Positions 3,251-55,445 of a stretch of 58,571 nt of DNA are shown here, piece after piece. How positions within the stretch are numbered: the stretch's first letter is position 1; each line of letters opens with the position of its first letter. Origin of the DNA: Calothrix anomala FACHB-343 (GTDB taxonomy: Bacteria > Cyanobacteriota > Cyanobacteriia > Cyanobacteriales > Nostocaceae); contig NZ_JACJQG010000064.1 of NCBI RefSeq assembly GCF_014696435.1, forward strand, positions 1 through 58,571. The letters run 5' to 3'. The position numbers were made by a program, and so were the translations under genes. The notes below the pieces were generated by a model that ran no database searches, was not told where the DNA came from, and saw only the letters and a list, made by a program, of their open reading frames with translations.

Positions 3251-3403
3251 TTTTGTCATTTGTCATTAGACATTTTGCATAAATATTTTTTTGTCTCACG
3301 CAAAGGCGCAAAGACGCAAAGAAGAAGCTAAGAATAAGAATTTTTGCAAGAAGTCTATTGAGTAATTCGTTAGGCGATCGCTTTTTTTGAAAATAATATA
3401 TTT

Positions 3404-3807
3404 CTTTAAATCCCCTTGCGGGGTAATAGGTTTTTGAAACATGCAGTAGTTAGACCTAGCATCAGGGACAGGCCTTGTTTCAACCCCCTTGCGGGGTAAT
3501 AAGTTTTTGAAACATTGCGCCGTGTTGGTAGATCCCGACAAAAACATTTTTGTTTCAATCCCCTTGCGGGGTAATAGGTTTTTGAAACTCTGCGCTGTAA
3601 TAGATATCTTGACAGATATTTGTTTCAATCCCCTTGCGGGGTAATAGGTTTTTGAAACTCACAAATTATTTATCAATTCCCCATCAATGTAAGAGTTTCA
3701 ATCCCCTTGCGGGGTAATAGGTTTTTGAAACCCAGAGCATTGGTATTGGGCTTATAAATATGAGGAGAAAGTTTCAATCCCCTTGCGGGGTAATAGGTTT
3801 TTGAAAC
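3404..3807 (-). CRISPR. CRISPR array, six 37-bp repeats and five spacers
   Basis: Repeats lie at 3404-3440, 3477-3513, 3552-3588, 3622-3658, 3695-3731 and 3771-3807; the last four are identical. Spacers are 36, 38, 33, 36 and 39 bases. Repeat 3404 has two changes at its outer end and repeat 3477 has two internal changes, so the left end is the old, decaying end. On the minus strand every repeat ends in ATTGAAAC, the usual 5' handle of type III/I crRNAs. Both facts say the array is transcribed leftwards with its leader right of 3807. The repeat has a short internal stem (CCCC/GGGG). Confidence 0.95.
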
Positions 3808-4074
3808 CCCGGGTGCTGAAACTAATACACCGTAGGCTTTCTGGGAAGGATTTTGGCAGATCGAAAAAAATGGTCGTTTTCAGCCTACCTTATTGCAACT
3901 AATTTGCAACTTCCCGAAGACTCGAAACCCTGTAATTATTGATTTGTCAAGGTTCTGGCGTTTTTGGCGGAACCCCCCAGGTTTTTACACCCGCTTGGAT
4001 ATGCCAAATGTCAAGCTAACACATGAATAATCAAATTATACTCAACTCTTGGCGAGAGATTCCTTGGTAGTTCT
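3808..4074 (-). promoter_or_regulatory. Probable CRISPR leader
   Basis: This 267-base gene-free stretch adjoins the intact end of the array and precedes it in the inferred direction of transcription. Read leftwards it contains two TTGACA boxes (complement of 3945-3950 and 4009-4014), neither with a convincing -10 at standard spacing. It also holds the 3' untranslated region of the leftward mscS gene, so the array could be read partly from mscS. Confidence 0.5.
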
Positions 4075-5082
4075 TTAAGATTGATTGCTGTGAGAATCTA
4101 CTTTGTGATTACCATCTGATGAGGTGTGAGACTGAGCAAGCAACCTGAGTGAATCGCTGATGCGGCGAGGCTTTGGGACTTTACCTTTAACAGCAGGCCA
4201 ACCTTCGCGTTGACGAGAGCGATCGCCATCTGTTTCTTCTGTCTGATCGTGAAAGAGAATTTGCTGGGTAGGGAAGGGTAAATCAATTCCGTTTTCCATC
4301 AGCTTTTTCTTAATCGCAGATAGCACTTTATCCCGCGATTTTAAATCATCTATACGGCGTGGGGGATGAATCCACCAGCGCACGCGGATATTCACAGTAC
4401 TTTCTGCAAGTTCCATCACCAAAACATCAGGAGCAGGTTCTTTTAAAACTTCTTCGATGCTATACATGGCTTCTAACATTAATTCTTTGGCTACATCAAT
4501 GTCATCGCCATAACCTATGCCAACATCGTACTGTAATCGGCGGTTGTCAAAGGCAGTATTTACAGTTACAGAATTGGTAAATAATTCGGAGTTAGGAATT
4601 ACAATTCGTCTACCATCGTAGGTTTTAATTGTTGTGGCGCGGGTTTCAATATTTTCTACAGTTCCTTCAAAGTTTTTAAAGACAATTTGGTCGTTAATTT
4701 GGAAAGGTTCTGTCAGCAGTATTAAAATTCCAGCTAGGAAATTTTGGAGAATATCGCGGAATGCAAAACCAATCGCGACACCGCTAATTCCTAAAAGTTG
4801 GACTAAATCTCCGGCTCTAAATGTGGGGATGACAATCGAAAGGGAGATAAATAACCCAATCAAGATTGTAACTCCCTGGGCTAATCTTCCCAAGACTAAA
4901 CCTAAATTTCGGGCGTAACGACGGTTATGAGTTAAACGCTTAACAACGGCTTTAATTCTGCTAGCAATAAATAGAAATAAGATAAAGACAATCAACGCCA
5001 AGAGGATATTCGGTAGCAAAGCGATGAATCCGTTAATCATGCTTTGAACCTTTTCCCAAGCTACGGATAGTTCTGTATTCAT
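4075..5082 (-). CDS. MscS-family mechanosensitive ion channel
   Basis: Predicted 335-residue small-conductance mechanosensitive channel of the inner membrane. Three hydrophobic segments are visible at about 18-42, 65-90 and 94-125; the third has the glycine/alanine-rich pore-helix pattern (GISGVAIGFAFRDILQNFLAG). The soluble beta domain follows (EPFQINDQIVFKNFEGTVENI, then the TYDGRRIVIPNSEL signature), then the alpha/beta domain up to about residue 270. The last 60 residues are polar, Ser/Arg/His-rich and probably unstructured. Such channels release solutes on hypo-osmotic shock. It is monocistronic, with the CRISPR leader downstream. Confidence 0.9.
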   Translation of the reverse strand: MNTELSVAWEKVQSMINGFIALLPNILLALIVFILFLFIASRIKAVVKRLTHNRRYARNLGLVLGRLAQGVTILIGLFISLSIVIPTFRAGDLVQLLGISGVAIGFAFRDILQNFLAGILILLTEPFQINDQIVFKNFEGTVENIETRATTIKTYDGRRIVIPNSELFTNSVTVNTAFDNRRLQYDVGIGYGDDIDVAKELMLEAMYSIEEVLKEPAPDVLVMELAESTVNIRVRWWIHPPRRIDDLKSRDKVLSAIKKKLMENGIDLPFPTQQILFHDQTEETDGDRSRQREGWPAVKGKVPKPRRISDSLRLLAQSHTSSDGNHKVDSHSNQS

Positions 5083-8691: not shown

Positions 8692-8710
8692 CTCAACCAA
8701 ATTTTCCAGA

Positions 8711-8791
8711 GCATACTACATGTCTGTTTCTCGCTCAGGTATTGAAGCCCAGACAGATTTTTTCAGATAGTGCAAAAAATTTGTAGTATGC
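8711..8791. ncRNA. Inverted-repeat structure at the border of the RNA locus
   Basis: A 10 bp perfect inverted repeat (8711-8720 with 8782-8791) encloses a second 6 bp stem (8721-8726 with 8750-8755) followed by a T-run and an A-rich stretch. The right arm contains TGTAGTAT, the octamer also found upstream of RNAs E and F. It may be a small RNA, a terminator, or a border repeat of the locus. Confidence 0.4.
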
Positions 8792-8793
8792 CC

Positions 8794-8830
8794 TTGACAC
8801 CCTGTAAGTTTTGTATTACAAATGTAGTAT
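8794..8830 (+). promoter_or_regulatory. Promoter candidate for the RNA-rich locus
   Basis: A consensus -35 TTGACA (8794-8799), 17 bases, then TACAAA (8817-8822) as a fair -10. A TGTAGTAT octamer follows at 8823-8830. Transcription would run rightward into the first tRNA-like element. Confidence 0.5.
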
Positions 8831-8903
8831 CAAGAGTTAAGCCTCCGCAAAGGTGAAAACTCGAACTGCTCAAGACCTTGCAATTACCATAGATGTTACT
8901 TTT

Positions 8904-8984
8904 GGGGTCGCGATTGGCGTTCGACTGCTCTGAAACCAACAAACGGACAGCTGCAGGATTTGGGTTCAATTCCCAACGACTCCA
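8904..8984 (+). ncRNA. Degenerate tRNA-like element
   Basis: A 7 bp acceptor-like stem (8904-8910 with 8977-8983, one G-U) closes a perfect T arm: 5 bp stem 8960-8964/8972-8976 with loop TTCAATT, followed by A8984. The 49 bases between do not fold into normal D and anticodon arms, and no CCA is encoded. It is a tRNA relic or mimic rather than a working tRNA. Confidence 0.55.
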
Positions 8985-9047
8985 TTTGCTTTAACTTCTA
9001 TTGAAACTGCAAACATATCAATTACAGCATCGCAATTATGCACACTT

Positions 9048-9586
<539 letters not shown>

Positions 9587-9594
9587 TCAGCTTG

Positions 9595-9735
9595 ATTCCG
9601 CGCCCTAACTTGTGAAGCATACACACTCTATCCGCAAGGATATACAGGTTCAAATCCTGTCGCTCCCTCTCATGGGAGCGTAGCCAAAATGGTAAAGGCA
9701 AATGTGCAAAACTGCTTTGCTGACTTGTGCGGAAT
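9595..9735 (+). ncRNA. Y-like RNA B carrying a circularly permuted class-II tRNA
   Basis: Terminal stem 9595-9601 with 9729-9735 (7 bp perfect), internal loop CCCTAAC (9603-9609) opposite GACTTG, inner stem 9612-9619 with 9713-9720 (8 bp with G-U). Inside, tRNA parts occur in permuted order: long variable arm 9629-9633/9638-9642 with GCAA loop, T arm 9644-9648/9656-9660 with loop TTCAAAT, 3' acceptor strand 9661-9667, hexaloop TCTCAT, 5' acceptor strand 9674-9680 (7 bp perfect), D arm 9683-9685/9697-9699 with GG in the loop, and a 4 bp anticodon-stem-like pairing (9622-9625/9703-9706). The molecule is therefore opened at the anticodon and closed at the acceptor. The variable arm is Leu-like. 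Confidence 0.7.
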
Positions 9736-9799
9736 TCCCATGATGCCAAATGTATTAATTTATTACCTGAACTCAATCACATATATGGAGGTAAATTTC

Positions 9800-10613
<814 letters not shown>

Positions 10614-10619
10614 AATTTT

Positions 10620-10752
<133 letters not shown>

Positions 10753-10777
10753 ATTCATTATCAATTATGAGTTAACT

Positions 10778-11178
<401 letters not shown>

Positions 11179-11349
11179 TCTTATCTTTCTTCTTTGCGTC
11201 TTTGCGTCTTTGCGTGAGATTTTTTTTTTAAACGAACCGCGTTCGCGAAGCGTCTCGCAGAGAAGTCGCGAAGTACACGAAGGAAGAGAAAGAAGATTTT
11301 ACTGATGAATTAGAACTGGCACATACAACTTTATTATTGGCAGTTGTTG

Positions 11350-11417
11350 CCGCGCCCCGATCGCAGAAGCATACATAACTCTGATTCAGTTACACAACGC
11401 TTCTACAACTTGCGCGG
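11350..11417 (+). ncRNA. Y-like RNA D, minimal form
   Basis: Terminal stem 11350-11355 with 11412-11417 (6 bp perfect), internal loop starting CCC opposite CAACTT (11406-11411), inner stem 11365-11370 with 11399-11404 (AGAAGC/GCTTCT), then the TACATA box and a hairpin with a 5 bp stem (11376-11380/11388-11392) and a 7-base loop CTGATTC, the geometry of an anticodon arm. It is the shortest member and has no cloverleaf. The rest of 11179-11522 holds common repeats (GCGTCTTT at about 11195-11225) and a run of AAAATCTAA copies near 11480. Confidence 0.6.
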
Positions 11418-11495
11418 TGAATTTATCGCCCCGCGTGCAACATCTGCCTCCTTCAATTTTGGATTTTAGATTGCAATCCAAAATCTAAAATCTAA

Positions 11496-12956
<1,461 letters not shown>

Positions 12957-12968
12957 TTTCTAACTTAT

Positions 12969-13004
12969 GGTAATGCTTATTATTATAATATAGTAAGCAT
13001 TGCC
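12969..13004 (+). terminator. Terminator after the TROVE-like gene
   Basis: An 11 bp hairpin (12969-12979 with 12994-13004, one G-U) followed by TATTTT, 12 bases past the stop. It could also stop the convergent leftward gene. Confidence 0.75.
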
Positions 13005-13017
13005 TATTTTATAAGTT

Positions 13018-13857
13018 TTAAATACTGAGATTTTGCTCAAGCCAAACAACTAAATCAGACATACTTGAAAAGTATAAAAAATCCTCCCCTAAGCTTTCTA
13101 ATTGCTCAGTAGATAATACTTGTAGACGTTCAAGTATTACTGATTCTATCTCACCAAAGCGTCTATTTATAAGGCGTAAAGTATATTTTAATGCTTCTTT
13201 TTGCTCTCCTCTTTGTTCTCCCTTCTGCAAAATATCTTGATAAATTACTGACTCTTGCATAAGCTCCTCTCGTAACAATTGACGAATAAAATATTTTTCA
13301 AACTTTAATCCTGCTAAAATTTCAGTATAAGCAGCAGTATTTTGTCTTGTCTCTATATCTGGAATTTTAGCAATTTCCTGGGCAACCTGCGATAATAATG
13401 CCGTGGGTGAATCGGTTCGCGTTAACGGTGCAAAAGGTAATAACGCTAGATTTCCAAGAAATATTGCCGAATCTTGCTCCCACATCCGTATAACTCGATA
13501 ACGGTGGGTTGTTACCTCACTAATATACTCCTCAGTAAAGGCGATTTCGTCACTTGTTTCTTGTAAGAAAATTACTACTTGTGTGACAGGAACTTGATAT
13601 TTACGTGTCAATCTCACGTAATAATCTAGCATCCTTAAAGCAATTGGTGTTTGTGACTTAATAGTAGTTTGAAATTCTAGGTGTAAAATCCGATTTTCTG
13701 TTTGTAAAAAGGTGACTGAGTCAGCACGTATCGGTTCAATACTCAATTCAGTTTTTAAAATTTCAATTTTTTGTGGTTCTTGATTTAATAACCAACGGGT
13801 AAAATCAAAAGGGTACTTTTCTGCGAGGATTTTACAGAGGTTGTCATATTCTGCCAT
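13018..13857 (-). CDS. Rpn/PD-(D/E)XK family nuclease, DUF4351-type
   Basis: Predicted 279-residue protein of the recombination-promoting nuclease (Rpn)/transposase-like family abundant in cyanobacteria. The nuclease core is RADSVTFLQTENRILHLEFQ (D, then E-x-Q), followed by ALRMLDYYVRLTRKYQVPV. The C-terminus (LKYTLRLINRRFGEIESVIL... LSTEQLESLGEDFLYF) is DUF4351-like. The start at 13857 (MAEYDNLCKIL) fits the family; 21 upstream codons do not. It is convergent with the TROVE-like gene and separates it from RNA E, probably a later insertion. Confidence 0.8.
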   Translation of the reverse strand: MAEYDNLCKILAEKYPFDFTRWLLNQEPQKIEILKTELSIEPIRADSVTFLQTENRILHLEFQTTIKSQTPIALRMLDYYVRLTRKYQVPVTQVVIFLQETSDEIAFTEEYISEVTTHRYRVIRMWEQDSAIFLGNLALLPFAPLTRTDSPTALLSQVAQEIAKIPDIETRQNTAAYTEILAGLKFEKYFIRQLLREELMQESVIYQDILQKGEQRGEQKEALKYTLRLINRRFGEIESVILERLQVLSTEQLESLGEDFLYFSSMSDLVVWLEQNLSI

Positions 13858-13984
13858 CTCAAAGTTGAGTTTTAGTTTTCTTGATGATTTTATCTTATAT
13901 TGGCTTGTAACCAGTTCCATTCATTAGTGATTTTAAGTGGCGATCGCACTATTGTAAAATCTCTGTTTTCATCTTTGAGCATAT

Positions 13985-14010
13985 TTGTAGTATAGTGTAC
14001 TATATAAATA
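13985..14010 (+). promoter_or_regulatory. Promoter/operator of RNA E
   Basis: Contains TGTAGTAT (13986-13993), a 14-base palindrome TATAGTGTACTATA (13991-14004) and TATAAA as -10 (14003-14008 region) just before the RNA. RNA F has the same block with one change. The palindrome over the promoter suggests a repressor site. Confidence 0.55.
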
Positions 14011-14011
14011 T

Positions 14012-14219
14012 CCTGCGTGCCCCAACTTGTGTGAGCCTACATACTAGTACGAGAGGAAGGTAACACTGTCAAATTCAGTGGGCGTGTGTGAACGGGGAGT
14101 GCGAAGAACCTGGAAAGTGAACTTAGAAGTACCCATCTTTGAAAGAGTGTGTAACAACTCACCAGTCGAGTCCCTCTAGTAACTGAGAACACGCAATGCT
14201 CTACCAACTTGCTCGCGGG
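14012..14219 (+). ncRNA. Y-like RNA E: sarcin-ricin loop joined to GTPase-centre mimic
   Basis: Terminal stem 14012-14020 with 14211-14219 (one T-T, one G-T), internal loop CCCAAC opposite AACTT, inner stem GTGAGC/GCTCTAC. The cargo is 23S rRNA-like. 14044-14057 is CTAGTACGAGAGGA, the universal sarcin-ricin loop. A CACTG/CAGTG hairpin follows (14064-14080), then stem 14082-14087/14189-14194 enclosing 14108-14166, which matches the L11-binding domain (helices 42-44, E. coli about 1051-1108): CTTAGAAGT, then GAAAGAGTGTGTAAC and AACTCACCAGTCGAGT. The basal pair of that domain is swapped (CTGG/CCAG against CCAG/CUGG in rRNA), keeping pairing. In E one helix-43 stem (AAC/CCC) is broken, which F retains. 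Confidence 0.8.
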
Positions 14220-14336
14220 AAATGATTATATAAACTCCTAACGTTACTGAATTAACTTATAAACTCCTCTTTGCGCCTTTGCGTGAGTGACGGAAATGTT
14301 GAGTCCATCAATTGATTGATTACCTTGGGATTCACG

Positions 14337-15956
14337 CTAGTCATCTTCCAGCGATAGAAGTGTCTCATCCAAATCTTTGATGTAGGGCTGCACTAAATCT
14401 TCTGGCACAATTCGTTTGCGGAGTGCATCGCTAACTGCAACCTTTTCTGCTAGCAGCAGTCGCCGGCGAATTCTATCTAGCCCAGTGCGATCGCCCGATC
14501 GCTGCCCTGCTCGATATTTATTATAGAGATCGCGCAGCACTCGTTCAGACTTTGCCACCCGCACTTGATAAGATGACCATAGCTCCTCATATACTGCTTT
14601 CGGCAATACGCCCGATTTCAGCAGACTATCTAACTCATCCTGAGCAGCTTTAGCCGCAATCAATTGAATCTGTAACTTCCCAGTTTCTTGCATAACGTCA
14701 GAAGCACGGCTGATATTTAGCCGTTTAATCGCCCAAGGTAAGGCTAATCCTTGTATCACTAGGGAAAATAAAACCGAACCAAACACCAGTTGAATCAGGA
14801 GATTTCGTTCTGGTAGGGACAAGGGAATAGCAACTGCTAACGCCATTGAGAGCGAACCTTTAATATTCCCTAAAACCAAAACATGCTGCCACAATAGCGG
14901 GATCGGACGATCAAACCAACGCAACCCTGCTAATAATAAATAGACTGAGAGAATCCGTCCTAGTTGATACGCCAGAATCACGAACAAAATCGAGGGTACA
15001 ATTTTCCACAGCGACGCAGGATTAATTTCAATCCCAATCAGCAGAAAAATAAACGTATTGACGCTAAAACCAGCATATTCCCAGAAACTTAATAAGGTAA
15101 TTCGATCCGAAGCCGACGAAGTGCGAGGAAGCCCAAGATTGCCAAAAATCAGTCCGGCGATCACTACAGCCACAGCACCGGATACGCCCAAAAATTGCCC
15201 TATTTGGAAGGTTCCTAATGCTAAAGCCACGGTTAGCAACAGGCTACTTAAGGGATCTTTTAAGCGATTGAATATTGGTAAGCTTAAGTAACCTAAGACT
15301 GCTCCCACCAACCCCCCGCCTAAAGAAACTAGGAGCAGTTCCTTCACTCCTTGTACAACAGTGAGAGAGCCTGTTGCATAAATTACTAAAAGCAAATTGA
15401 ATGAAATCAGCGCAGCCGCATCATTAAATAGGGTTTCTCCCTCAACAATAGTGCTTAATCGCGAAGGCACACGTATATCCTTGAAAACAGCAATTATCGA
15501 GACTGTATCAGTGTTAGCCAGGATGACTCCAATCAGCAAAGCGGGAATCCAGTCTAACCCCAGCCCAAATTTAACCAGCGCTGCAATAATTGCTGAAGAA
15601 AAAATTGCACCAGGCCCAGCTAAAAGTGCGATCGCCTTAAAAGTGCTGCGCAGACGGCTAATATCTGTATTGATCGATGCTTCAAAAATCAGAATCGGCA
15701 AGAAAAGGTTTAATACTAAAGATGGATCTAACCCAATCCGACGCGACCAAAGTTCCGTAATCGGTAACCCTGCTAGCACCAATCCTGTTACATAAGGAAT
15801 TCGTAGTCGCTGAGTTATCAATGCAACAGCAGTGGCAATCAGTAACAAAATAATCAAGATGATGACCAGTTCAGGAATGGTTCCTGCTGTTTGGCTATCT
15901 ACAGGAGAATTGCTGTTTAAAGGGTTTTGTTGGGCTAAAATCCACTCCATTACCAA
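14337..15956 (-). CDS. Na+/H+ antiporter, CPA1/NhaP family
   Basis: Predicted 539-residue inner-membrane cation/proton antiporter with about 12-13 hydrophobic segments between residues 28 and 410. Family landmarks: ANTDTVSIIAVFKDI (the TDP motif region), the acidic ion-site motif VEGETLFNDAAALISF, and later GNIKGSLSMALAVAIPLSLP. The soluble tail (about 415-539) is charged and helical, as in cyanobacterial NhaS/NhaP proteins. It exports sodium in exchange for protons. It sits between the two rRNA-mimic RNAs and reads leftward against them, so it was probably caught between duplicated copies rather than being part of the system. Confidence 0.9.
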   Translation of the reverse strand: MVMEWILAQQNPLNSNSPVDSQTAGTIPELVIILIILLLIATAVALITQRLRIPYVTGLVLAGLPITELWSRRIGLDPSLVLNLFLPILIFEASINTDISRLRSTFKAIALLAGPGAIFSSAIIAALVKFGLGLDWIPALLIGVILANTDTVSIIAVFKDIRVPSRLSTIVEGETLFNDAAALISFNLLLVIYATGSLTVVQGVKELLLVSLGGGLVGAVLGYLSLPIFNRLKDPLSSLLLTVALALGTFQIGQFLGVSGAVAVVIAGLIFGNLGLPRTSSASDRITLLSFWEYAGFSVNTFIFLLIGIEINPASLWKIVPSILFVILAYQLGRILSVYLLLAGLRWFDRPIPLLWQHVLVLGNIKGSLSMALAVAIPLSLPERNLLIQLVFGSVLFSLVIQGLALPWAIKRLNISRASDVMQETGKLQIQLIAAKAAQDELDSLLKSGVLPKAVYEELWSSYQVRVAKSERVLRDLYNKYRAGQRSGDRTGLDRIRRRLLLAEKVAVSDALRKRIVPEDLVQPYIKDLDETLLSLEDD

Positions 15957-16122
15957 TCCTCCTATACAGCGCTTTCATCAAAAGTTGTGAGTCAACTATT
16001 GTTTGAGTGTACAGGAAGGCAGAGGGGCAGGGAGCAGAGAGCAGGGGGAGAAATAAAAATATCTTCTCTCGGAAATTGGATAATTTATTTTCTGGAAGTC
16101 CCTAAAAAGTAACAGGATTTTT

Positions 16123-16150
16123 TTGTAGTATAGTGTATTATATAAATATC
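16123..16150 (+). promoter_or_regulatory. Promoter/operator of RNA F
   Basis: Same block as upstream of RNA E: TGTAGTAT (16124-16131), near-palindrome TATAGTGTATTATA (16129-16142), TATAAA -10 region and CCTGCGTG start. The inverted sequence TATACTACAA lies just after RNA F (16361-16370), so the RNA gene is flanked by a 10 bp inverted repeat. Confidence 0.55.
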
Positions 16151-16357
16151 CTGCGTGCCCCAACTCTTGTGAGCTTACATACTAGTACGAGAGGAAAAGT
16201 AACACTGTCAAATTCAGTGGGCGTGTGTGAACGGGGAGTGCAAAGAACCTGGAAAGTCGGCTTAGAAGTAGCCATCTTTTAAAGAGTGTGTAAAAACTCA
16301 CCAGTGGAGTCCCTCTAGTAACTGAGAACGCGCAATGCTCCATTAACTTGCACGCAG
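16151..16357 (+). ncRNA. Y-like RNA F: second sarcin-ricin/GTPase-centre mimic
   Basis: A diverged copy of RNA E. Terminal stem 16151-16158 with 16350-16357 (8 bp, perfect), internal loop CCCAAC (16159-16164) opposite AACTT (16345-16349). Sarcin-ricin loop at 16182-16195, identical to E. L11-binding mimic at 16247-16305 with the helix-43 arm intact (GGCTTAGAAGTAGCC, one base from the E. coli sequence) and the helix-44 loop GTAAAAACTC. The outer stem 16221-16226/16328-16333 has a T-G where E has T-A, so pairing is kept despite change. Differences between E and F fall so that most stems survive, arguing for selection on structure. Confidence 0.8.
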
Positions 16358-16448
16358 AACTATACTACAACTTTCAATCAATTGTTAGTAGTAACATCGC
16401 CAAATTCTTGTGAAAAGTTAGCGATATTAACTTTAATAATTAACAAAA

Positions 16449-16841
16449 TTAAACTTTATCTGAAGTCTTGGACTTTAGTACTTCTATTGCTTTAAATCCT
16501 TGTATAGTTTGACTTAAAAATATCATGGGAAGAATCAAGCCAAAAGGTTTACCAGTTTGAATCATATTAAAAATGCCAGTTAACACATTTAGTGACATCA
16601 ATCCTACTGCAATACCTAATGCAGTTTTTGATTTACGTTGAACAAAATAACCTAAACAGAGATACAGTAAGCCAAAAAATAAAAAACCAATTACTAATAT
16701 TAAATAATCTGGTAATTGATTACCAACAAGAAAGAAGAGAATACTAAAAAAAATGCACAGGACTCCAACTGCGTAAACTGCACGATAAGCAGATGCTAAC
16801 TTTTTTCTCGACTCGGATATTTGTTGTATCTCAGTAGTCAT
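16449..16841 (-). CDS. Small four-TM membrane protein, unknown
   Basis: Predicted 130-residue integral membrane protein with four hydrophobic segments (about 18-40, 46-66, 73-93 and 98-118) and a short charged N-terminus. No family recognised. It lies leftward between RNA F and the downstream rightward pair. A link with the RNA locus is not evident. Confidence 0.6.
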   Translation of the reverse strand: MTTEIQQISESRKKLASAYRAVYAVGVLCIFFSILFFLVGNQLPDYLILVIGFLFFGLLYLCLGYFVQRKSKTALGIAVGLMSLNVLTGIFNMIQTGKPFGLILPMIFLSQTIQGFKAIEVLKSKTSDKV

Positions 16842-17036: not shown

Positions 17037-17870
17037 ATGCCTGATATTCGTAAGTTAATTAATCAAATTGCTGATGCAGAAGCACAGTTATCCGCTACCC
17101 AATTCCTTGCGCCTTGTGTCAAAGGTGGACGAGTTCGCACAAAGGTAGCGGGAATGATCTATACATTCACGCCAAAGCCGCGTCAATTTGCAGGTTGGGG
17201 TATCTTTCAGTCTGTGGATGCAAAGACAGCAAAGGTTGTCGAAGAAGCAGATTTACCCCAAATTGCCGAATACTTACAACATTTCCCCCAAATCCGGCTG
17301 CGGTTAGCACATCAATTGCAGGGACAAACTTGGTTAGCATATCCTGTAAATGAAGTTGATATGCGTCAACGGTTGAAGGTGGTAAAGCCGATCGCAGTCC
17401 ATTTAGTAACTGAGGGTGTGGCTTTTGAGCAAATCATTACCCGGTGGAATGGACAGTCATGCTGGTTTGAGGAAATCGATCGCCGTACCGATCCGATAAT
17501 TGGGGAAACTCTGCAATCTGCAATTAAGGAATTAACCCCAGTTGGGGAATTGCAATTTAAAGGGATGACTCCAGAGATGCGCACAGTATATGAATTAACC
17601 ACGGCGCAAATTGCAGAATTCAGTCAACCCCAACAAGATGAAAAACGACTGCGTAAAGCTTTACAGCAAGGTGGTGGGGAATTAAACGAATTTCAGGATC
17701 GTGGCGATTACTGGACAGTTAATTGGCGTACTGCTGATGGGATTAGCCACACAAGCGCGATCGCCAAAACTGACTTGACTGTGATTAGTTCTGGTATTTG
17801 TCTGAGCGATCGCGATCGCGATTTTGATCTGCAATCCTTAGTGGGTGTAATCGAACAACAAGAGTGGTAA
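17037..17870 (+). CDS. Unknown 277-residue protein paired with E1-like enzyme
   Basis: Predicted soluble protein I cannot assign. The N-terminal third has a Cys in FLAPCVKGGRVRTKVAGM followed by YTFTPKPRQFAGWGIFQ; two further Cys lie in NGQSCWFEE and SSGICLS. The C-terminal third (EKRLRKALQQGGGELNEFQDRGDYWTV split around the triple glycine) could be a separate small domain. The stop is 5 bases before the ATG of the ThiF-like gene, so the two are one unit. As a partner of an E1 enzyme it might be a conjugation target, carrier or E2-like protein, but no E2 signature is visible. Confidence 0.55.
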   Translation: MPDIRKLINQIADAEAQLSATQFLAPCVKGGRVRTKVAGMIYTFTPKPRQFAGWGIFQSVDAKTAKVVEEADLPQIAEYLQHFPQIRLRLAHQLQGQTWLAYPVNEVDMRQRLKVVKPIAVHLVTEGVAFEQIITRWNGQSCWFEEIDRRTDPIIGETLQSAIKELTPVGELQFKGMTPEMRTVYELTTAQIAEFSQPQQDEKRLRKALQQGGGELNEFQDRGDYWTVNWRTADGISHTSAIAKTDLTVISSGICLSDRDRDFDLQSLVGVIEQQEW

Positions 17871-17875
17871 GGACG

Positions 17876-18514
17876 ATGAGCATTTTTTTTCACGAACAGC
17901 TTTACCGCAGCAATGCTGTGATGAAAAAGCTGAAGGATTATCCTGTGACTATCTGTGGTGCTGGTGCCTTAGGCGCTAACATTGCAGAAAACTTAGCTCG
18001 GTCTGGTTTTGATAAACTGACTGTGATAGATCGCGATCGCATTGAGGAACGTAATCTTTCCACTCAGCCTTATTACCGTTCCGATGTGGGCGCATTTAAA
18101 GCCAAAATTTTAGCCAATAATTTATATCGCGCTATTGGTACTAAAATTGATGGCAAAACAAAAGAGTTGACACCAGCAAATACAAATCAACTCCTCAAAG
18201 ATAGTCAGCTAATTATTGATGCTTTTGATAACAGTATCGCCCGTCAAGCAGTCAAAGATTATGCGGAGAAATTCAATATACCTTGTCTTCATGCTGGACT
18301 ATCAGCCGATTATGCAGAAGTGATTTGGAATGACGTTTATCGCGTTCCTTCTGATGTGAATGATGATATTTGTGATTATCCCTTAGCACGAAATTTGGTA
18401 ATGTTAACCGTTGCTGTAGCTTGTGAAGCTGCAATTTCCTTCATTGCGACAGCAGAACAGCGTAACTTTACCATTACCCTCAAGGATATGACAGTTCAAG
18501 CCTTGGTGCTGTAG
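17876..18514 (+). CDS. E1-like ThiF/HesA/MoeB-family adenylyltransferase
   Basis: Predicted 212-residue enzyme activating the C-terminus of a ubiquitin-like protein with ATP. The nucleotide loop is CGAGALGANIAENLARSG (about 27-44), the acidic strand end LTVIDRD, the arginine-finger region ERNLSTQPYY, and the adenylate-binding IIDAFDNSIAR. The CxxC zinc pairs of MoeB/ThiF are absent. A candidate catalytic Cys is in NDDICDYP. Start: ATG at 17876, with AAGGA just upstream; the frame extends to a GTG at 17864 that overlaps the previous gene. A small ubiquitin-like gene in the same locus (9386-9586) is its natural candidate partner. Confidence 0.8.
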   Translation: MSIFFHEQLYRSNAVMKKLKDYPVTICGAGALGANIAENLARSGFDKLTVIDRDRIEERNLSTQPYYRSDVGAFKAKILANNLYRAIGTKIDGKTKELTPANTNQLLKDSQLIIDAFDNSIARQAVKDYAEKFNIPCLHAGLSADYAEVIWNDVYRVPSDVNDDICDYPLARNLVMLTVAVACEAAISFIATAEQRNFTITLKDMTVQALVL

Positions 18515-55220: not shown

Positions 55221-55445
55221 GCAGATAGGGAGACGCGGATAGGCGGAGATTAAAAGACAGGGGAATATAACCAATGCCCCATGCCCAATGCCCAATGCCC
55301 AAAAATAAAAAATGCCCCAGAGGATTCTCCAGGGCTTAACCAGGGTGCATCTACCATTACTCTCTACTAGAGGAATAGAGATTATCCGGAAAGACACTGA
55401 AAATTTATCAAAATTTTTTTTTGCAGAGTTAAAGTCTATGCTTTT

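Follow-up and report, generated by a model that had tools for sequence, protein, structure and literature searches.

Cyanobacterial RNAs joining a sarcin-ricin loop to an L11-binding domain: a conserved family of candidate Y-like RNAs beside a predicted Ro60-fold protein

Introduction

What use could a cyanobacterium have for parts of the ribosomal GTPase-associated centre that are encoded outside ribosomal RNA (rRNA)? The question is raised by two RNAs, E and F, on contig NZ_JACJQG010000064.1 of Calothrix anomala FACHB-343, the whole 58,571-base stretch of which is called the window here. Both carry a sarcin-ricin loop (SRL) followed by an L11-binding-domain-like part. Bacterial Y RNAs are known to mimic tRNA, and we hold with moderate confidence that E and F are Y-RNA-like mimics of the GTPase-associated centre, held by the Ro60-like protein of a cyanobacterial Ro60 system. 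The basis of this reading is a frame common to E, F and sibling RNAs, the conserved pairing of the module, a neighbouring protein of predicted Ro60 fold and the motif TGTAGTAT. An earlier note on this DNA had proposed free-standing titrators or sensors, which finds no support as it stands, as E and F belong to a frame-sharing, Ro60-linked set. It is this set, together with the Ro60-like protein and the TrcR-type motif, that makes a Y-RNA-like role our first hypothesis.

Results

A rearranged GTPase-centre module in RNAs E and F

The two RNAs and their parts are:
14012-14219, plus strand: RNA E, frame RNA with SRL and L11-domain module, apical h43 stem broken; 213 bits to covariance model R1
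16150-16358, plus strand: RNA F, intact frame RNA with SRL and L11-domain module; 241.7 bits to R1
14044-14057, plus strand: exact SRL 14-mer of RNA E, from motif search
16182-16195, plus strand: exact SRL 14-mer of RNA F, from motif search
14108-14166, plus strand: L11-binding-domain-like part of RNA E, aligned with RNA F
16247-16305, plus strand: L11-binding-domain-like part of RNA F, including the Rfam large-subunit (LSU) rRNA match at 16249-16304

The window has two exact copies of the 14-mer CTAGTACGAGAGGA, one in each RNA (14044-14057 and 16182-16195), where 0 would be expected; the L11 domain starts 51 nucleotides (nt) after its end in both RNAs. The match of RNA F to Rfam LSU_rRNA_bacteria reaches 52.3 bits (E-value 9.8e-13; gathering score 50) and covers model positions 1093-1148 only. 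RNA E stays below the gathering score, yet aligns column by column with RNA F. A permissive-filter Rfam run over 8700-16500 listed no LSU match, RNA F included, so the match of RNA F depends on the search mode. RNA E lies on the plus strand where it had been placed before, and the model extends RNA F by one base at each side.

As reference we used one cyanobacterial rRNA operon assembled from three stretches (L121, L116 and L122). There the L11 domain (3956-4024) precedes the SRL core (5544) by about 1.5 kb; the order in E and F is thus reversed and the spacing cut to about 50 nt, and neither RNA presents contiguous 23S domains in rRNA order. The basal stem of the L11 domain, CCAG/CTGG in the reference 23S rRNA, is swapped to CTGG/CCAG. 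On all these points, namely the exact loops, the L11-binding domain some 50 bases further on, the inverted order of parts that lie far apart in 23S rRNA and the swapped base, the earlier note proved accurate. Its statement that the differences between E and F preserve the stems fails at the h43 hairpin, where all three apical pairs are broken in RNA E (alignment columns 118-134, 119-133 and 122-132) and kept in RNA F. With one U-U in its terminal stem as well, RNA E may be a decaying copy; RNA F looks intact. A DNA search of the organism's own genome found E and F as the sole two copies. When this genome was searched with the 23S model, only RNA F was among the matches listed (12 of 130 candidates scored), so that the real 23S genes seem to be missing from the assembly.

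A conserved RNA family

Long homologues were drawn from searches, at the DNA level, of plasmid records and of 291 genomes belonging to the order. From 72 copies with distinct cores, 38 RNAs were chosen for diversity (alignment A2), and a structure was drawn by hand from this alignment and the known L11 fold. It is paired in 95.2% of 1590 cells, and 18 of its 42 pairs are changed on both sides. The covariation score of 0.253 exceeds that of shuffles (0.140; reached in 0 of 500) and of slid partners (at most 0.108), the latter being a flattering control because the structure was derived from the same 38 sequences. The swapped base stem itself covaries within the family (U-A 23, C-G 15; G-C 27, A-U 9). 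Homologues with conserved structure, on which the earlier note had let its claim depend, thus exist, and the covariation supports a selected, folded RNA combining SRL and L11 domain; on its strength we reject a decayed rRNA fragment, as had been argued from E and F.

The SRL core AGUACGAGAGGA is kept in 37 of the 38 RNAs, in exact columns in 32 and with the last A gap-shifted in 5, and is changed in one. In E. coli numbering, the equivalents of U1060 and A1088 are invariant, and 37 of the 38 RNAs keep the A equivalent to A1095. At 1072/1092/1099, 35 of the 38 have a U-U-A triple, in contrast to C-C-G in the one cyanobacterial 23S rRNA that was read; U-U-A is a natural substitute for C-C-G in this triple.

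R1, the covariance model built from the 38 RNAs, gave 225 matches over the window, 77 Ro60-like loci and two real 23S stretches. Among these are 47 E/F-type RNAs (136-255 bits) and the two 23S stretches, matched at 59 bits in the L11 part only; most of the remaining 176 (17-51 bits) cover both ends of the model with the middle deleted. Real 23S genes likewise match R1 (about 50-63 bits, model positions about 85-168), and counts of the E/F type were therefore restricted to full-length matches. With 8 candidates scored per genome, R1 matches were found in 148 of the 291 genomes, and full-length ones in at least 23. The DNA search had hit 87 of the 291, a tally in which both kinds of match are mixed and which was set aside. 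No E/F-like RNA was met in Rfam 15 beyond the LSU part, and none that mimics rRNA in the manner of a Y-like RNA was among the results listed for the open-access literature searched, with most subscription papers and preprints outside its scope; within these limits, the earlier note's view that a rebuilt factor-binding site outside the ribosome is undescribed stands.

A common frame closes RNAs of different kinds

The outer part of E and F is a frame that consists of a terminal stem P1, a CCYAAC/ACUUG internal loop, a second stem P2 and the sequence UACAUAC, and is common to six RNAs of the window. Frame matches with stored alignments number 261, including truncated E/F copies and weak matches down to 16.8 bits, and occur in 74 of 79 sources (the window, the 77 loci and the Kovacikia locus L005). 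Among them, the loop is CCYRAY-like in 254, the opposing strand ACUUG-like in 257 and the last element UACAUAC-like in 251, with an exact ACATAC in 207. Across RNAs of different kinds, P1 and P2 are paired in 97.0% of cases with a covariation of 0.527 versus 0.260 (0 of 500), values obtained from 140 of the 261 RNAs that were aligned to the model and hence lean towards it. As in Y RNAs, the 5' and 3' ends of E and F pair into a stem with a conserved internal loop. By length, the frame RNAs fall into 26 mini RNAs, 114 of tRNA size, 48 of 135-165 nt, 22 of about 185 nt and 51 of at least 200 nt. Beside E and F, the window encodes:
9083-9209, plus strand: frame RNA with tRNA-like module; tRNA model match at 9108-9181
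9595-9735, plus strand: frame RNA with permuted tRNA module (T-arm then D-arm); weakly YrlA-like (20.2 bits, E-value 1.6, not significant)
10621-10746, plus strand: frame RNA with tRNA-like module; tRNA model match at 10646-10719
11347-11420, plus strand: mini frame RNA, almost without module; R1 match
8904-8987, plus strand: minimal tmRNA-like tRNA domain outside the frame; 37.8 bits, below the gathering score of 47

The two tRNA-size RNAs of the window, to which the tRNA scoring of this class was confined, reach 60.1 and 49.8 bits, and UACAUAC, an element of their frame, forms the acceptor strand. The arm order of 9595-9735 is the permuted order of YrlA, and its Kovacikia homologue scores 32.7 bits against the YrlA model (E-value 7.2e-4). 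The class of about 185 nt, which is absent from the window, contains a stretch that matches 23S rRNA at a position of the reference operon that we take to be helices H69-H71: 17 of the 22 RNAs match the operon within 4806-4831 (E-values down to 2e-6), and one other RNA of the class is an incomplete E/F copy, which matches in the L11 region. In an alignment of 20 motif-picked members, 22 of 40 predicted pairs are doubly changed and pairing is 95.6%, figures obtained without a shuffle control. The similarity of the 5' part of this module to 23S rRNA was reached by 0 of 500 shuffles in all seven tested of the 20; that of the 3' part was reached by 6 to 131 of 500 simple letter shuffles and is significant for some members only. 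Since this 3' part resembles sequence lying upstream in 23S rRNA, the module looks circularly permuted at the H69 loop. Examples are L040:8208-8392, L042:6352-6535 and L097:9490-9676, with 17 more.

Two side observations concern the tRNA-like elements. The tmRNA-like domain, which has a short loop in place of the tag region, is also present in L040 (7585-7668, 42.8 bits). By eye, a second tRNA-like body surrounds frame RNA 9083-9209 (window 9050-9090 and 9203-9262), with an acceptor GGGTCTG/CAGATCC, a D-arm and a T-arm; the frame RNA seems to replace its anticodon arm.

A protein of predicted Ro60 fold

Between these RNAs and RNA E lies the core protein of the cluster, whose predicted fold is that of Ro60, a human autoantigen:
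11523-12956, plus strand: 477-amino-acid protein of Ro60 fold with helical repeats and vWA domain, by predicted structure and fold comparison

Its AF2 model (pLDDT 85.4, pTM 0.80) was compared with the PDB by VIA-align, and the ten best hits are all Ro60, Rsr or TROVE-domain structures, with 418-439 residues aligned. PF25045 (vWA_Ro60) matches 7 of 28 homologues, at best with an E-value of 0.003. Calothrix brevissima NIES-22 (L036) carries the locus with a Ro60-like protein of 99% identity to that of the window. A PDB sequence search with the profile of the Ro60-like family was weak, its best TROVE rows having an E-value of 1.3 and an unrelated protein ranking above them; it was thus the fold comparison that settled the assignment. 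Judged by the model, the protein has the Ro60 fold, a TROVE ring plus vWA domain over its whole length, and E and F are, like Y RNAs, encoded with a putative Ro60 orthologue.

A TrcR-type operator motif

TrcR of Anabaena PCC 7120 is reported to repress a trn operon of 26 tRNAs, rtcB, rsgA and other genes through a site, TGTAGTAT, that overlaps the -10 box TAGTAT of the trn operon; antibiotics that target translation lift the repression (PMC10272220). The window carries this motif at the following places, among others:
13986-13993, plus strand: TGTAGTAT, the published TrcR site letter for letter; begins 26 nt ahead of RNA E
16124-16131, plus strand: TGTAGTAT; starts 26 nt before RNA F
8782-8789 and 8823-8830, plus strand: tandem TGTAGTAT pair upstream of the first RNAs of the cluster
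16362-16369, minus strand: inverted TGTAGTAT directly behind RNA F

In all, 7 sites were counted in the window, where 1.58 would be expected; six fall within 8713-16369. In 42 Nostocales-type loci, hand-picked from 78 with the window included and some near-identical, 110 sites were counted versus 11.25 expected (20 shuffles, maximum 18). Most precede either the whole cluster or the E/F-type RNA. A site no further than 60 nt upstream is present for 29 of 45 E/F-type RNAs, versus 3 of 210 other frame RNAs. In Nostocales, the E/F-type RNAs thus seem to possess their own promoter. The motif, which as in the TrcR regulon overlaps a presumptive -10 box, stands before both E and F. A sigma-70 consensus scan gave no plus-strand promoter and two sites on the minus strand, fewer than in shuffles, so the case for a -10 box is taken from the published TrcR site. 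No plus-strand terminator was found directly past E or F, the sole plus-strand terminator-like site lying at 16460-16478. From its sequence, the cluster looks stress-controlled.

Neighbouring genes

Further conserved genes accompany the RNAs:
10801-11178, plus strand: paralogue of ribosomal protein L7/L12, by sequence comparison
9386-9586, plus strand: conserved 66-amino-acid protein ending in VYG, possibly ubiquitin-like by eye, without significant family match
9882-10613, plus strand: conserved 243-amino-acid protein without family, in 42 of 77 loci
17037-17870, plus strand: conserved 277-amino-acid protein without family, in 56 of 77 loci
17864-18514, plus strand: ThiF/E1-like protein, in 54 of 77 loci

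Neighbours were counted by tblastn over the 77 loci with queries from the window (from L005 for two of them), and the counts are lowered by loci cut at contig ends and by distant relatives. The 66-amino-acid protein is the most frequent (67 loci), ahead of the 277-amino-acid (56), ThiF-like (54) and 243-amino-acid (42) proteins; the L12 paralogue occurs in 21. At least five tRNA genes (ARAGORN) are present in 13 of 77 loci, and Kovacikia has 33. Pfam and NCBIfam returned nothing significant for the 66-, 243- and 277-amino-acid proteins. The 66-amino-acid protein with its VYG end and the ThiF/E1-like protein could possibly form a ubiquitin-like conjugation pair within the Ro60 locus. A second, canonical L12 gene is found elsewhere in the genome, on a stretch whose other open reading frames (ORFs) resemble L11, L1 and L10 by eye, which makes the window copy a paralogue; the latter keeps TGLGLKEAKD and lacks the alanine-rich hinge. 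It occurs in 16 of 42 loci with an intact E/F-type RNA versus 5 of 35 without (p 0.023). E and F are both followed by opposite-strand ORFs, and the next long gene on their strand is that of the 277-amino-acid protein.

Away from the cluster, the window contains a CRISPR-like array of six repeats (3389-3807) and an NsiR1 nitrogen-stress RNA (55306-55356, minus strand, 50.5 bits).

Plasmids, viral contigs and other phyla

RNA E matched 23 plasmid records, of which two, Dolichospermum pAfl69 and Kovacikia pA, cover 80% of it or more; RNA F matched 11 phage records, none of which covers as much; the short rows look like real L11 domains. In a viral collection, 7 contigs carry Ro60-like genes (44-50% identity), and only one of them, the 390-kb IMG/VR contig L129, has a frame RNA (1706-1779, 33 bits, E-value 6.5e-11). 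Two other frame rows of L129 were dismissed as chance (E-value 2.1). tRNA genes lie near the Ro60-like genes of the viral contigs L123 (15), L125 (5), L128 (4) and L129 (4). Metagenome-assembled genomes labelled Actinomycetota and Blastocatellia (L094, L096) contain the Ro60-like gene with cluster neighbours, by transfer or mis-binning; L096 also has an E/F-type RNA and 30 tRNAs.

Discussion

A proposed Ro60-held mimic of the GTPase-associated centre

E and F could act in the following way. Translation stress would relieve TrcR repression and switch both RNAs on, and the Ro60-like protein would grip their frame as Ro60 grips the stem of a Y RNA. During the translation block, the Ro60 particle would thereby present the GTPase-associated centre, and anything that recognises the real centre might dock on the module or be drawn to it as a competing decoy. 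Candidate ligands are L11, L7/L12 or the cluster's L12 paralogue, translational GTPases, and enzymes that attack or repair this site. Docking and decoy are inseparable here, and each is less likely than a Ro60-held mimic as such. The sibling RNAs would play the equivalent role for tRNA and for H69-H71 of 23S rRNA, so that overall the Ro60-like protein would hold a set of copies of those parts of the translation apparatus that are vulnerable.

Several observations weigh against this reading. The Ro60-like protein shares only about 14% sequence identity with Ro60, and it does not reach the Pfam TROVE gathering score, only vWA models matching it, just below their cut-offs. As a single sequence, RNA F folds modestly better than shuffles (z -2.01), and the A1067 equivalent (alignment column 125), an A in 30 of the 38 RNAs, is a G in the other 8. 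Presence of RNA and gene was compared on the assumption that both scans drew the same 291 genomes (their handles agree): 4 of 23 genomes have a full-length RNA and no Ro60-like gene, and 11 of 30 have the gene and no full-length RNA among the matches listed. Within the fetched flanks, 31 of the 77 Ro60-like loci show no BLAST match to an E/F-type RNA and 35 no intact one. TGTAGTAT precedes 30 of 37 Nostocales-type copies and 0 of 35 others, so that the stress-control argument is valid for one group only. Finally, 26 of 46 E/F-type RNAs lie 0-250 nt upstream of the 277-amino-acid gene on the same strand.

Free RNAs that act without Ro60 and sense or soak up L11, L7/L12, translational GTPases or RelA would fit the SRL core and L11-domain positions kept in the module, the L12 paralogue gene of the window and of 21 of 77 loci, and the four genomes that have the RNA and no Ro60-like gene. 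This explanation is nevertheless rather unlikely, as E and F have their outer frame in common with siblings that carry no GTPase-centre module, and the presence of the RNA follows that of the Ro60-like gene. Quite unlikely, too, is a module that serves no decoy function and acts instead as template or chaperone in the repair or maturation of damaged 23S rRNA, with enzymes such as rRNA-modifying ones or RtcB-type ligases held on it. Both rtcB and rsgA are among the genes under TrcR control (PMC10272220), and Deinococcus Rsr is reported to act in rRNA maturation under heat stress and in rRNA decay during starvation (PMC4726728); no direct sign of such a function was seen, however: the module mimics rRNA in the sense orientation, and no search for complementarity to rRNA was made.

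The frequent position upstream of the 277-amino-acid gene suggests a third alternative, a cis-acting 5' leader of the 277-amino-acid and ThiF genes that mimics rRNA like the leaders of ribosomal-protein operons. We find this unlikely, since RNA E and RNA F are 2818 and 679 nt away from that gene in the window, with opposite-strand ORFs between, and no ribosomal protein gene follows them there. Moreover, in L074 (one of two copies), L087, L090 and L096 it is the Ro60-like gene that the RNA precedes, and the terminal stem that closes the RNA also closes siblings of other kinds. That E and F are decaying rRNA pieces carried by a mobile element, for which the broken h43 stem of RNA E and truncated copies in some loci (L046, L065, L106) might speak, is hardly credible given the covariation over 38 sequences, the reversed order within a conserved frame and the spread of the family across many genera.

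A Ro60-held mimic therefore remains our preferred reading, and a wider proposal can be attached to it tentatively. Cyanobacteria may possess a stress-induced Ro60 machine with a library of RNA mimics (tRNA, permuted tRNA, GTPase-associated centre, H69-H71) on one Ro60-binding frame, which captures or outcompetes ribosome-directed factors, nucleases or modifying enzymes; perhaps large phages have it as well, an extension suggested by the one frame RNA in the 390-kb IMG/VR contig. Such a library would amount to decoy immunity for translation with RNAs in the role of the decoys, and would often include a dedicated L12 paralogue and a ThiF-type protein. A Y-like RNA that rebuilds a factor-binding centre, with siblings that mimic another region of 23S rRNA, would make the purpose of Y-RNA modules testable, each module naming its likely ligand. 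If the reading is true, it would also tie Ro60 to the TrcR translation-stress regulon of cyanobacteria, and structural and antibiotic studies would gain a minimal GTPase-centre RNA from nature.

Comparison with known systems

With ribosomal-protein operon leaders, E and F share the mimicry of rRNA outside the ribosome; they differ in having no ribosomal protein gene next to them in the window and in a closed frame common to other RNAs. The trn operon of Anabaena PCC 7120 has the same operator, TGTAGTAT, and at least five tRNA genes occur in 13 of 77 Ro60-like loci as well; the accessible part of its description speaks of 26 tRNA genes and mentions no frame RNA. The GTPase-associated centre of 23S rRNA (SRL H95, H43/H44) has the SRL core AGUACGAGAGGA, the secondary structure of the L11 domain and its tertiary positions in common with E and F, whereas the reversed order, the joint of about 50 nt, the swapped base stem and the U-U-A triple are peculiar to the latter, and the closing frame is lacking in 23S rRNA.

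Closest in architecture are the Y RNAs. Ro60 is described in the literature as binding Y RNAs by their end stem; in Deinococcus, a Y RNA is reported to join PNPase to Rsr and to act as its gate (PMC4726728), and competitive inhibition of an anticodon nuclease has been suggested as the role of the tRNA-like YrlA domain (PMC7790460). Like YrlA (Rfam RF02553), E and F have ends paired into a stem, an internal loop near the Ro60-binding end, with ACUUG on its 3' side in both (consensus line compared by eye), a structured module that resembles an RNA of translation, and a relative of Ro60 encoded beside them. Unlike YrlA, they carry an rRNA module of SRL and L11 domain instead of tRNA, measure about 208 nt and have a different 5' loop (CCYAAC), and in the Kovacikia alignment the terminal stem of YrlA falls on P2 of the frame and not on P1. 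E and F do not match the YrlA model, and the best sibling scanned reached 32.7 bits at a gathering score of 69. The Ro60/Rsr ribonucleoproteins (Deinococcus RYPER; Salmonella rsr-yrlBA-rtcBA) likewise combine the Ro60 fold with neighbouring structured RNAs and a link to RNA repair or translation stress. The cyanobacterial system differs from them in a far diverged Ro60-like protein (about 14% identity), in a whole set of module types and in its common neighbours, which are the 66- and 277-amino-acid proteins, the ThiF-like E1 and the L12 paralogue (21 of 77 loci). E and F are thus neither members of YrlA nor rRNA, and resemble Y RNAs in both anatomy and neighbourhood.

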